Source: Pelagibacteraceae bacterium AG-426-I15 (lineage in GTDB: Bacteria > Pseudomonadota > Alphaproteobacteria > Pelagibacterales > Pelagibacteraceae). From it: a stretch of 41,578 nt of DNA. The stretch's first letter is position 1; each line of letters begins with the position of its first letter. Below the pieces are notes generated by a model. The model had not been told where the DNA came from, did not search any database, and saw only the letters and a list, made by a program, of their open reading frames with translations. The stretch lies in the NCBI GenBank assembly GCA_003213135.1, contig QCNT01000006.1, positions 1-41,578 on the forward strand, written 5' to 3'. Shown one piece after another: positions 33,859 through 37,327 of this stretch. Made by a program: the position numbers and the translations under genes.

Positions 33859-34207
33859 GCTAGGCAATTGGATTGTCGCTGTATAGAAGTACAGAGGAAA
33901 GTCCGGGCTCTTAAAGGTGCAGTGCCAGTTAACGGCTGGCGAGGGTGACCTTAGGGATAGTGCCACAGAGAATATACCGCCTAATCAAGGTAAGGGTGAA
34001 AAGGTGCGGTAAGAGCGCACCGGTTTTCTGGTAACAGAAAACGCATGGCAAACCCCACTGGGAGCAAGACTAAAAAGAGACGACGCCGCGAAAGCAAAAA
34101 ACAACCTTTAGTTAGTCGTCAGGGTTAGTCGCTTGAGTTTGAGCGTGAGCTCAAATCTAGATAAATGACATCTTAAATGACAGAACCCGGCTTACAGATT
34201 GCCTAGC
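33859..34207 (+). ncRNA. rnpB: RNase P RNA
   Basis: The catalytic RNA that matures tRNA 5' ends. Class A hallmarks are present: GAGGAAAGTCCGGGCTC near the 5' end, GAGGGTGACCTTAGGGATAGTGCCACAGAGA, the GGTAAGGGTGAAAAGGTGCGGTAAGAGCGCACCGG P12-type hairpin, GGCAAACCCCACTGGGAGCAAGA and the 3' AGAACCCGGCTTACAG. Helix P1 is closed by perfect complements at the two ends (GCTAGGCAAT at 33859-33868 with ATTGCCTAGC at 34198-34207), which sets the ends. TATTAT at 33844-33849 fits a -10 for a start near 33856. No clear hairpin-plus-T-run terminator follows. Confidence 0.96.
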
Positions 34208-34280
34208 ATAAGCTTCCAAATGTTCGTGCTTTGTATCAAATTATTATTTAAATATTGATTAGTTTAAGGTTAATTAAGTA

Positions 34281-34309
34281 TTGACTATAATATAATATAC
34301 CCATATGAT
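34281..34309 (+). promoter_or_regulatory. Promoter of the mraZ-ftsZ division cluster
   Basis: TTGACT (34281-34286) and TATGAT (34304-34309) are separated by exactly 17 bases, the best sigma-70-type match I noticed in the window. Transcription would begin near 34316, inside the putative MraZ operator and about 40 bases before the mraZ ATG. The upstream stretch from rnpB (34208-34280) is AT-rich with nothing else recognised. Confidence 0.7.
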
Positions 34310-34340
34310 CCCATGAATTCCCAAATATTGGGAAATGGGG
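34309..34340. promoter_or_regulatory. Putative MraZ operator (TGGG boxes, palindrome)
   Basis: On the minus strand two TGGGA boxes (34319-34323 and 34309-34313) are separated by 5 bases, the TGGGN-N5-TGGGN layout reported for E. coli MraZ. On the plus strand two more TGGG boxes follow (34329-34332, 34336-34339), and TTCCCAA/TTGGGAA (34318-34324, 34328-34334) form a perfect palindrome with a 3-base centre. The boxes overlap the predicted transcription start, a position suited to repression. Confidence 0.6.
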
Positions 34341-34354
34341 AGATTTGATGATAT

Positions 34355-34819
34355 ATGTTTTTGTCAACTTACGAAAACAGCCTAGACAAAAAAGGGAGGG
34401 TGTCCGTGCCTTCTAGTTTTAGAGCATATTTAAACTCAATGGGATATAATGGTTTTGTTACTTATCCGTCTTTTAATAATTCTGCTCTTGACGCCTGTGC
34501 TCAAGACAGAATAGAAAAACTTTCAGACAGCATTGACTCGCTGGGCCCATTTGAAGATAAAAGAGATTTTTTTGCAACCTCAGTATTGTCAGCAAGTACT
34601 AATCTTAATTTTGATAGCGAAGGTAGAGTTTCAATACCCAAAAAACTATTAAATCATGCAAAGATCAAATCAAACATTATGTTTGTAGGCTTAGGCAAGG
34701 TATTTCAAATATGGGATCCAAAACTTTTTGAAAAGTTTCAATCTCTTGCAAGAAAAAAAGCTTATATTAACAGGTCGGCTTTAAAATGGGATAGTAAATT
34801 TAAAAAGGAGGGAGTATGA
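34355..34819 (+). CDS. mraZ: Transcriptional regulator MraZ
   Basis: MraZ is a DNA-binding protein with two SpoVT-AbrB-type halves that controls the division/cell wall cluster. Each half has the DxxxR signature: DKKGRVSVP (11-19) and DSEGRVSIP (88-96). The 154 residues are typical and begin MFLSTYENSLDKKGR as in the family. A GGGGAG sequence lies 12 bases before the ATG. It is the first gene of the cluster and overlaps ftsZ by 4 bases (ATGA), with a TGGG-box array upstream suggesting autoregulation. Confidence 0.95.
   Translation: MFLSTYENSLDKKGRVSVPSSFRAYLNSMGYNGFVTYPSFNNSALDACAQDRIEKLSDSIDSLGPFEDKRDFFATSVLSASTNLNFDSEGRVSIPKKLLNHAKIKSNIMFVGLGKVFQIWDPKLFEKFQSLARKKAYINRSALKWDSKFKKEGV
34806..34811 (+). 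promoter_or_regulatory. Strong ribosome binding site of ftsZ
   Basis: AGGAGG lies inside the 3' end of mraZ, 4 bases before the ftsZ ATG at 34816. A perfect site stands out because most starts in this window show no clear Shine-Dalgarno sequence. It supports ftsZ starting at 34816 and high ftsZ translation coupled to mraZ. Confidence 0.75.
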
Positions 34820-36300
34820 CGATTAATATCGGTGGAGGAGAACTTAAAGAACTAAAACCAAGAATTTTAGTCATGGGAATTGGTGGAGCAGGAGGCAATG
34901 CAATTAATGCAATGATAGAAGACGGTATGCAAGGTGTAGAATTCGTAGCTGTAAATACCGATGCCCAAGATTTAAAAGTAAGCAAAGCTGATGCAAAAAT
35001 TCAAATCGGAATGAATTTAACAAAAGGACTTGGTGCTGGAGCCAAACATGATATTGGTCAAGCAGCTGCCGACGAGTCTTTAAACGAAATAGTTACTTAT
35101 TTGCAGGGAGCAAATATGGTTTTTATTACTGCAGGGATGGGCGGTGGTACCGGCACCGGAGCTTCACATGTTATCGCAAGAGCAGCAAAAGAATTAAATA
35201 TTTTAACAGTTGGAGTAATAACTTTACCATTTTCTTACGAGGGACCTAAGAGAATGAGAAGGGCAAGTGAAGGCTGGAGTAAATTAAAAAAACACCTAGA
35301 TGCTTCAATCGTAGTTCCAAATCAAAATCTTTTTAAAATTGCAAACGAAGCAACCACATTTGAGAAATCATTCTCTTTATCTAATGATGTTTTAAAACAA
35401 GGTGTTAGAAGTATTACAGATTTAATGGTTAGACCAGGACTGATCAACCTAGATTTTGCTGATGTTGAAACGGTTATGAACTCAATGGGTAAAGCAATGA
35501 TGGGTTCCGGAGAAGCTGAAGGAGAAAATAGAGCAATGGCTGCAACCGAAATGGCTTTAAATAACCCTTTAATAGATGACTATTCTCTAAAAGGTGCAAG
35601 AGGATTGTTAGTAAATATAACAGGAGGGGAAGACATTAAACTTTTTGAAGTTGACCAAGCAGTAAATAAGATAAGAGCAGAAGTTGATCCAGAGGCAGAA
35701 CTTATCTTCGGAGCAATAAAAGATGAAAATTTAAATGGAAAAATGAGAGTATCTATTGTTGCAACAGCTCTTGACGGTGAAATGCCCGAAGGAAAATCTA
35801 TAAATAACAACGTTCATAGAATCCACACAAGAGCCGCAGGATATACTGATGATAACCAAAGAAATATTGAGGTTACATCAATGCCAGACCTCGGATCCAT
35901 TCAAGGCGCTACAGCACTTAAATTAGATAATGAAGTTGAAACAAATCAAAACCCACTTGTACAAAATGAAGAAGAGGTTAGTACAAAAAAACAAGAAGAT
36001 TTGATATCTGGAGTATCGCTTGAAAACGCTTCTTATTTTGAAAACGATCATAGTCAGGAAGAGGTTACAAGAACAGAAGAACCCGAAGAAACTGTAATTG
36101 ACGAAATTTCTCTTTACGAGGAAAAACCTTTGAATAATCCAGACTTAATCCAAGATGGTCACAATGAAGTTTCCCCCCAACTATTTTCTGATGAAGAGAT
36201 CTCAAATACTTCATCAGAAAATAACAAAGAAGATTCTTTAAAAAGTGATGAAGAAGAGGATTTTGAAATACCAGCTTTTTTACGCAAACAAAAATTTTAA
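34816..36300 (+). CDS. ftsZ: Cell division protein FtsZ
   Basis: FtsZ is the tubulin-like GTPase forming the division ring. The GTP-binding domain has VMGIGGAGGNAINAM (19-33), the tubulin signature GGGTGTGA (109-116) and the T7 synergy loop NLDFADVETVM. After the polymerisation core (to about residue 325) comes a long acidic linker of about 140 residues, then the conserved C-terminal peptide DFEIPAFLRKQ that binds FtsA-type membrane anchors. The 494 residues are within the alphaproteobacterial range. Its place between mraZ and rsmH is unusual, since ftsZ normally closes the cluster. Confidence 0.97.
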   Translation: MTINIGGGELKELKPRILVMGIGGAGGNAINAMIEDGMQGVEFVAVNTDAQDLKVSKADAKIQIGMNLTKGLGAGAKHDIGQAAADESLNEIVTYLQGANMVFITAGMGGGTGTGASHVIARAAKELNILTVGVITLPFSYEGPKRMRRASEGWSKLKKHLDASIVVPNQNLFKIANEATTFEKSFSLSNDVLKQGVRSITDLMVRPGLINLDFADVETVMNSMGKAMMGSGEAEGENRAMAATEMALNNPLIDDYSLKGARGLLVNITGGEDIKLFEVDQAVNKIRAEVDPEAELIFGAIKDENLNGKMRVSIVATALDGEMPEGKSINNNVHRIHTRAAGYTDDNQRNIEVTSMPDLGSIQGATALKLDNEVETNQNPLVQNEEEVSTKKQEDLISGVSLENASYFENDHSQEEVTRTEEPEETVIDEISLYEEKPLNNPDLIQDGHNEVSPQLFSDEEISNTSSENNKEDSLKSDEEEDFEIPAFLRKQKF

Positions 36301-36313
36301 GTTTAAAAATTAG

Positions 36314-37327
36314 ATGAAGGGTATTTCATCGTTTGAAAGTTTTCCACATTATCCAGTAATGCTGGATCAAGTAATTAAAATATGCTCTCATAAACAAGGT
36401 GGAAATTTCATTGATTGTACTTTTGGATGTGGAGGATATTCAAAAGCTATCTTGTCCTTATCTAATACAAAAGTAATTTCTATAGATAGAGATAAGCATG
36501 CAATAGATTATGCGTCAGAAATTAAGAAAAATTATAAAGAGAGATTTACTTTTCATAGCGCAAAATTTAGCAACCTAGACAAGGTAATAGAAGAAAATTT
36601 TAAAGCAGATTTTATTATTTTTGATCTAGGCATTTCATCTTTACAAATTTTTAATTTATCAAGAGGTTTTTCATTTAGGTCAAAAGACAGAATTGACATG
36701 AGAATGGGTTTAAATTCTATCTCAGCAGAAGAGGTTTTAAACAAGTATAGTTTTAAAACTTTAAAAAACATTTTAAAATATTTTGGAGACGAAAAAGACT
36801 GCTCTCGTATTGCAACAAATATTATAAAAGAGAGGAAAAAAAATCCAATAATATCGGTACCTGCATTAGTAAATATTATTCAAAATAGCAAAAAAAGAAA
36901 TTATAAAAAAAAAATAAATATTTGCACGCAAACCTTTCAAGCTTTAAGAATTTTTGTAAATAATGAAGTTTCAGAATTAATAAACGGCTTAATAGTGGCC
37001 ACAAAATACTTAAAAGAGGGAGGAAAAATAATAGTGATAAGCTTTCACTCTTTAGAAGATAAAATTATTAAATTTTTCTTTACTAATTATTCTAATAATA
37101 AGTCAAAAAGCTCAAGATATTTTCCACAATTAAAAAATGAGAAAATTCTTTTTGAAAATTATAAAAACTCCATTATTAGGCCAACTGAAAGCGAAGTCAA
37201 AAAAAACCCACCTTCTAGATCTGCAAAACTAAGATGCGCAACAAGAAGTAAAGATAGTTTTTTTTATCCAGAAGATTTAAAAAAAAAATTTGAATATTAT
37301 TTAAATTTAGAAAGTGAGCATGTTTAA
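36314..37327 (+). CDS. rsmH: 16S rRNA (cytosine1402-N4)-methyltransferase
   Basis: RsmH (MraW) methylates N4 of C1402 in the 16S rRNA P site. Family features: FPHYPVMLDQVIKIC at the N-terminus, the SAM loop FIDCTFGCGGYSKAIL, DLGISSLQIFNLSRGFSFRSKDRIDMRM and, near the C-terminus, ISFHSLEDKIIKFFF and NPPSRSAKLRCATR. The 337 residues are slightly longer than E. coli RsmH. It lies 13 bases after ftsZ and overlaps the FtsL-like gene by 8 bases, in the position it normally has after mraZ except for the intervening ftsZ. Confidence 0.96.
   Translation: MKGISSFESFPHYPVMLDQVIKICSHKQGGNFIDCTFGCGGYSKAILSLSNTKVISIDRDKHAIDYASEIKKNYKERFTFHSAKFSNLDKVIEENFKADFIIFDLGISSLQIFNLSRGFSFRSKDRIDMRMGLNSISAEEVLNKYSFKTLKNILKYFGDEKDCSRIATNIIKERKKNPIISVPALVNIIQNSKKRNYKKKINICTQTFQALRIFVNNEVSELINGLIVATKYLKEGGKIIVISFHSLEDKIIKFFFTNYSNNKSKSSRYFPQLKNEKILFENYKNSIIRPTESEVKKNPPSRSAKLRCATRSKDSFFYPEDLKKKFEYYLNLESEHV

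Follow-up and report, generated by a model that had tools for sequence, protein, structure and literature searches.

What kind of site occupies the short region in front of mraZ in SAR11 bacteria, and which genes would it govern? The operator of MraZ has been defined in few species, although the protein is widespread and its gene comes first in the division gene cluster. Eraso et al. (2014) reportedly described the E. coli MraZ operator at Pmra. The DNA analysed here (the window, i.e. the whole stretch of 41,578 nucleotides) constitutes contig G000:C6 of its genome. A preliminary description had proposed that the region upstream of mraZ holds an MraZ operator built of four boxes, two per strand, lying over the promoter of mraZ and ftsZ.

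Identification of the locus and its gene order

The locus is the rnpB–mraZ–ftsZ–rsmH region of SAR11 (Pelagibacteraceae). Among the best 80 FtsZ matches, the closest named loci were those of Pelagibacteraceae, Pelagibacterales and Candidatus Pelagibacter. The coordinates of the genes and of the upstream elements are collected in Table 1. The stop codon of mraZ and the start codon of ftsZ overlap (ATGA). The encoded MraZ matched solved MraZ structures at E values down to 4.7e-11 and has the KGR..SVP and GR motifs in common with the E. coli protein, to which it is 26% identical. Solved MraZ entries include 9qlg, 9qlr, 9r4j, 9sx6 and 9sz7.

Table 1. Features of the mraZ upstream region and neighbouring genes (positions in the window)
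Feature	Position	Strand	Remarks
rnpB (RNase P RNA), upstream neighbour, same direction	33860..34210	+	Rfam RF00010, 292.8 bits
Predicted -35 hexamer, TTGACT	34281..34286	+	TTGAC kept in 89/89 three-box SAR11 upstream regions
Putative core operator, TGGGAATTCATGGGATCATATGGG, three direct repeats, period 10	34300..34323	-	single match in the genome at <=1 mismatch
Putative MraZ box 1	34300..34303	-	CCCA on +, TGGG on -; in 89/91 distinct SAR11 upstream regions
Predicted -10 hexamer, TATGAT; makes up the 6-nt spacer from box 1 to box 2	34304..34309	+	TANNNT in 89/89
Putative MraZ box 2	34310..34313	-	CCCA on +; SAR11 conservation
Putative MraZ box 3, near predicted transcription start	34320..34323	-	CCCA on +; SAR11 conservation
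Two plus-strand TGGG words (34329, 34336)	34329..34339	+	not conserved; probably outside the core operator
GGGGAG, possible ribosome-binding sequence	34337..34342	+	read from the sequence; overlaps second plus-strand TGGG
mraZ, 154 aa	34355..34819	+	Pfam MraZ, 78.4 bits
ftsZ	34816..36300	+	Pfam Tubulin and FtsZ_C
rsmH (mraW)	36314..37327	+	Pfam Methyltransf_5, 284.7 bits

Analysis of the gene order revealed that mraZ is directly followed by ftsZ in 28 of 29 SAR11 loci (a set in which the window's own locus is counted twice, as L001 and L036) and in two of three sister-family loci. The next gene was rsmH in 26 of 28 other Alphaproteobacteria (ftsZ in one of the remaining two, neither gene in the other) and in all 30 loci of other classes. 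The promoter of mraZ in SAR11 thus reads directly into ftsZ.

Promoter and repeats upstream of mraZ

The hexamers TTGACT and TATGAT, described earlier as a near-consensus promoter, are present in the window at a distance of 17 bp. As a sequence match this pair does not exceed chance, since three promoter-like sites were found in the region against 3.3 expected in shuffled sequences. What argues for a promoter is conservation: TTGAC was retained at a fixed spacing in all 89 three-box SAR11 upstream regions, 17 bp (60 regions) or 16 bp (29 regions) before the hexamer that separates the first two boxes.

The minus-strand repeat TGGGA-N5-TGGGA, also reported in the preliminary description, was found once (34309–34323), against 0.06 occurrences expected in shuffles of the window. 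It forms part of a longer array: a further CCCA at 34300, which had been overlooked, precedes those at 34310 and 34320, yielding an exact 10-bp ladder of three TGGG-type repeats on one strand. The boxes overlap the -10 element of the predicted promoter, the transcription start being likewise a prediction from the sequence, and the first gene downstream of the ladder is the cognate mraZ. In the genome of 976,624 bases the three-box pattern matched only this place, even with up to one mismatch, and the reversed pattern did not match anywhere.

Conservation of the ladder in SAR11

A total of 108 usable SAR11 upstream regions were reduced to 91 distinct ones by removing identical sequences; one locus lacking its upstream region (L081) and one ending before the mraZ start (L191) were dropped from the counts, and a short pattern locus (L142) was left out. 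The exact triple is kept in 89 of the 91. The two that deviate, L026 and L192, have ACCA as box 1 and intact boxes 2 and 3. The 10-bp CCCA triple was detected in (i) all 23 loci of the genus (window included), (ii) all 79 usable loci among the best 80 of the FtsZ scan, the 80th being L081, and (iii) all 21 usable sister-family loci; sets (i) and (ii) share several genomes. Other periods or reversed boxes were nearly absent from the same upstream sets. Most flanking columns are variable, with the commonest base reaching ~30–80%; the boxes themselves, the promoter words and some A/T positions next to the boxes stand out from them. An alignment of relatives, in which boxes should be conserved and flanks not, had been suggested in the preliminary description; it came out as foreseen for the three minus-strand boxes, but not for the words on the plus strand.

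On the scale of whole genomes, the exact triple was found in 140 of 197 genomes of the family (once in 139 of them and twice in one), while the reversed control matched in one of 197. These are genome-wide matches, their position at mraZ being known for the loci whose upstream region was read. Many of the 57 genomes without the exact triple are incomplete; no genome of the genera g5, g7, g11 and g381 carries it. Two-box sites elsewhere in SAR11 genomes are few, and the reversed control yields some as well. A larger SAR11 regulon was considered and rejected, since genomes with the exact triple have it once (139 of 140); any MraZ feedback in SAR11 is probably confined to this one promoter. The genome with two matches (G614) has two versions of the operator that differ from each other, one on contig C16 and one on C25, which possibly reflects a mixed assembly.

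Distribution of the ladder in Alphaproteobacteria and other classes

The comparison was widened by 68 other Alphaproteobacteria that have mraZ. A match was present in 245 of 289 genomes, from which we took the 28 loci that scored best and 40 more, most of them picked to represent different families. For other classes of the phylum, 51 genomes were used: E. coli K-12 and 50 from a pool of 225 genomes with a match, Alphaproteobacteria included (the 30 with the best scores and 20 selected mainly according to family). As many as 62 of the 68 Alphaproteobacteria carry at least two CCCA words at 10 bp, i.e. a minus-strand ladder, and 45 carry at least three. Plus-strand TGGG words at this period formed two boxes in two of the 68 and three in none, and CCCA at periods of 7, 8, 9, 11, 12 or 13 bp gave two boxes in at most four. 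Of the six genomes without a CCCA pair, four contain a CCAT ladder instead. The reverse was observed in the other classes: a plus-strand GTGG ladder of at least two boxes is present in 46/51 (versus 1/68 Alphaproteobacteria) and of at least three in 39/51 (versus 0/68), and minus-strand CCCA pairs were detected in two of 50 other-class genomes. The SAR11 site does not conform to the E. coli type, with its coding-strand boxes and GTGG(G) core, and none of the 23 loci of the genus has a plus-strand TGGG ladder. The core is ATGGGA in Alphaproteobacteria (ATGGG or TTGGG at the SAR11 site) versus GTGGG in other classes; as the core itself served to pick each set, only the flanking bases of this comparison are independent.

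The ladder and the predicted promoter are interlocked. The sequence TGnTATCCC occurs in register with the ladder in 42 of the 62 other Alphaproteobacteria that have one, and in 39 of the 40 having both elements TTGAC lies 17 or 18 bp away from it. It looks like an extended -10 element, the last three bases of which are part of a box. In SAR11, TA replaces TG at the same place (89/89) and TTGAC is placed ~3 bp further away, suggesting that the promoter may have slipped against a fixed ladder. In the sister family f2 we found up to five boxes, and in many cases TAGACA and TACTAT at 17 bp. Most f2 genomes (L173–L190) have five boxes, extending past the predicted start.

Co-occurrence with mraZ and alternative explanations

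Thirty Alphaproteobacteria of at least 95% completeness gave no Pfam MraZ match. Seven of these proved to have mraZ when a class-specific profile was used and one of the remaining 23 (L311, with 158 nt upstream of rsmH) was left out, giving 22 informative mraZ-less genomes. In 21 of them no CCCA pair was found within 1500 nt upstream of rsmH. The presence of at least two boxes therefore follows that of mraZ (62/68 with the gene versus 1/22 without it; Fisher p = 3.5e-14 with kinship ignored, the true weight being lower because a few families, among them f60 and f144, supply many of the genomes without mraZ). The single exception, G173 (L296), an alphaproteobacterial genome of 0.8 Mb and 98% completeness, carries a three-box CCCA ladder with TTGAC 236–216 nt before the rsmH match and no recognisable mraZ; the ladder is either an orphan operator or accompanies a decayed mraZ. 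The opposite case is family f12 (L298, L300, L303, L306, L307, L310), in which mraZ is divergent (profile E values of 1e-14 to 1e-20) and no CCCA ladder was seen upstream of rsmH. Repressor and operator may have changed together in this family.

These distributions bear on the possibility that a factor other than MraZ binds the ladder, or that it is only a conserved promoter, as might be suspected from the way in which the boxes interleave with the -35 and -10 elements throughout the class. We regard this as very improbable, since a 10-bp ladder is not a feature of promoters, the array runs beyond the predicted start in the sister family, and the ladder is missing upstream of rsmH in nearly all informative genomes devoid of mraZ. 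Just as improbable is the anatomy of the preliminary description, in which a two-sided or mirror-image MraZ complex would hold four boxes, a pair per strand. The two plus-strand TGGG words are indeed present in the window, as are both halves of the TTCCCAA/TTGGGAA palindrome, two downstream plus-strand TGGG words occur in 5/89 SAR11 upstream regions (window included), and at least one downstream TGGG was detected in 14 of the 23 genus loci. However, TGGG at the offsets seen in the window is found in only 4/89 and 7/89 upstream regions and the palindrome in 3/89, and the distance of the plus-strand words from box 3 varies (8–10 and 15–18 nt), whereas the minus-strand boxes hold their 10-bp register in 89/91. 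Inverted copies that are neither conserved nor constant in spacing speak against a four-box, two-sided arrangement, and their poor conservation, varying spacing and overlap with the possible ribosome-binding sequence led us to exclude them from the core operator. The preliminary description was thus right about the kind of site, given its position over the mraZ–ftsZ promoter, its near-universal conservation in SAR11 and its class-wide co-occurrence with mraZ, and wrong about its anatomy.

The G-rich stretch following box 3 could instead have been selected as RNA, through a 5'-end hairpin with box 3 (TTCCC/GGGAA), a ribosome-binding site, or both, with the TGGG words as a by-product. This explanation, which is compatible with an MraZ operator, is possible, if doubtful. 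It gains from the presence of GGGA within 30 nt after box 3 in 51/89 upstream regions, from the location of GGGGAG 12 nt upstream of the mraZ ATG, and from folding energies of -7 to -9 kcal/mol for some single sequences. On the other hand, folding hardly beats that of shuffled sequences (mean z of -0.5 for the genus, n=23, and +0.1 for the rest, n=66). A conserved 5' hairpin was rejected, since the shuffles fold about equally well.

An out-of-frame ATG (34348–34350) is situated 7 nt upstream of the mraZ ATG, nearer to the putative ribosome site than the real start, and is present in 23/23 genus loci and 52/89 SAR11 upstream regions. A regulatory upstream reading frame starting from it was rejected: the stop is nearly always at codon 22 or 24, with or without the ATG, and thus follows from the coding constraint on MraZ.

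The proposed operator and its relation to known MraZ sites

Sequence anatomy, conservation, uniqueness within the genome, co-occurrence with mraZ and gene order together make it highly probable that the 24 bp at 34300–34323 serve MraZ as an autoregulatory operator, inverted in polarity and in direct control of ftsZ, where it would bind as a repressor. The three ATGGG-type minus-strand boxes follow one another at about one helical turn and so should all lie on one face of the double helix. The MraZ oligomer is ring-shaped, according to a passage of PMC7761207, and such a ring would bind the three boxes together, from about -16 to about +7. Box 1 would then lie inside the -35/-10 spacer, the -10 element would be the first inter-box spacer, and box 3 would fall close to the transcription start, a placement in which bound MraZ would exclude RNA polymerase. 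The outcome would be plain autorepression in an operon that also contains ftsZ, and, as ftsZ overlaps mraZ, a direct negative feedback on both genes. Several points weigh against the operator reading: taken by itself, the promoter match does not exceed chance, the six f12 genomes with a divergent mraZ have no ladder upstream of rsmH, G173 has a ladder and no recognisable mraZ, the exact triple is absent from 57 of 197 family genomes, and the core is not the GTG core of other classes.

Compared with E. coli K-12, the site has the same three TGGG direct repeats with a 10-bp period, upstream of the gene encoding their presumed binder. The E. coli-like layout proposed earlier therefore holds for the direct repeat, but not for its orientation relative to the gene. 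The E. coli boxes belong to the coding strand, have a GTGGG core and follow TAAACT (taken as the -10 element), and rsmH is the next gene; those of SAR11 belong to the opposite strand, lie on both sides of the predicted -10 element and have an ATGGG or TTGGG core, and ftsZ comes next. Repression by E. coli MraZ via repeats upstream of mraZ is described in passages of PMC7761207 and PMC8475190.

The PmraBc fragment of Burkholderia cenocepacia, bound by MraZ in gel shift according to the relevant passages of PMC7761207, also has a period of 10 bp (four repeats of 7 nt, set 3 nt apart) and likewise overlaps the transcription start, which in SAR11 is predicted; it differs in being downstream of the -10 element, in having four repeats and in having been found by a GTG motif. 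The Mollicutes site, given as (AAAGTGKN3)3 in parts of PMC5282649 and PMC8475190, is similar in its three direct repeats, period of 10 and small genome. In M. genitalium, as these passages state, its only chromosomal occurrence is the mraZ promoter, as in the case described here. The Mollicutes differ in the GTG core and in a four-gene cluster of mraZ, mraW, MG_223 and ftsZ (same passages). A repeated GTG motif is described as conserved in B. subtilis, E. coli and mycoplasmas in a passage of PMC7761207, and the alphaproteobacterial form, as judged from its sequence, departs from it. The type of switch is known, and its direction in this class is opposite to that in E. coli. In the open-access literature we recognised no alphaproteobacterial or SAR11 MraZ operator, nor a description of the class-wide inverted polarity or of a single-site mraZ–ftsZ circuit in SAR11, although a prior description in RegPrecise is possible.

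On balance, we lean towards the view that alphaproteobacterial MraZ uses an operator grammar of its own, its ATGGGA boxes being interleaved with the -35 and -10 elements and placed on the other strand from the ladders read here in other classes, and that in SAR11 the promoter slipped by ~3 bp against the fixed ladder (TGnTATCCC becoming TAnTAT in the inter-box spacer) and ftsZ moved directly behind mraZ, which would make MraZ a dedicated, single-site controller of the FtsZ level in some of the ocean's most abundant bacteria. A class-wide operator on the opposite strand would mean that the repressor's 10-bp direct-repeat geometry is conserved, but not its direction or its placement with respect to the promoter. 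SAR11 has few regulators and a streamlined genome, and here the data point to one circuit setting the FtsZ level: one regulator, one site and one operon.

The neighbourhood of the ladder has a further constant member. RNase P RNA was found near mraZ in all 20 SAR11 and sister-family loci scanned. For 'Candidatus Pelagibacter ubique' it is listed in the intergenic region adjoining mraZ in a part of PMC2704228, so that this neighbourhood was already known. As rnpB is also near mraZ in several other Alphaproteobacteria (L034, L037, L040, L041, L043, L047, L052 and L058), the linkage seems older than SAR11.
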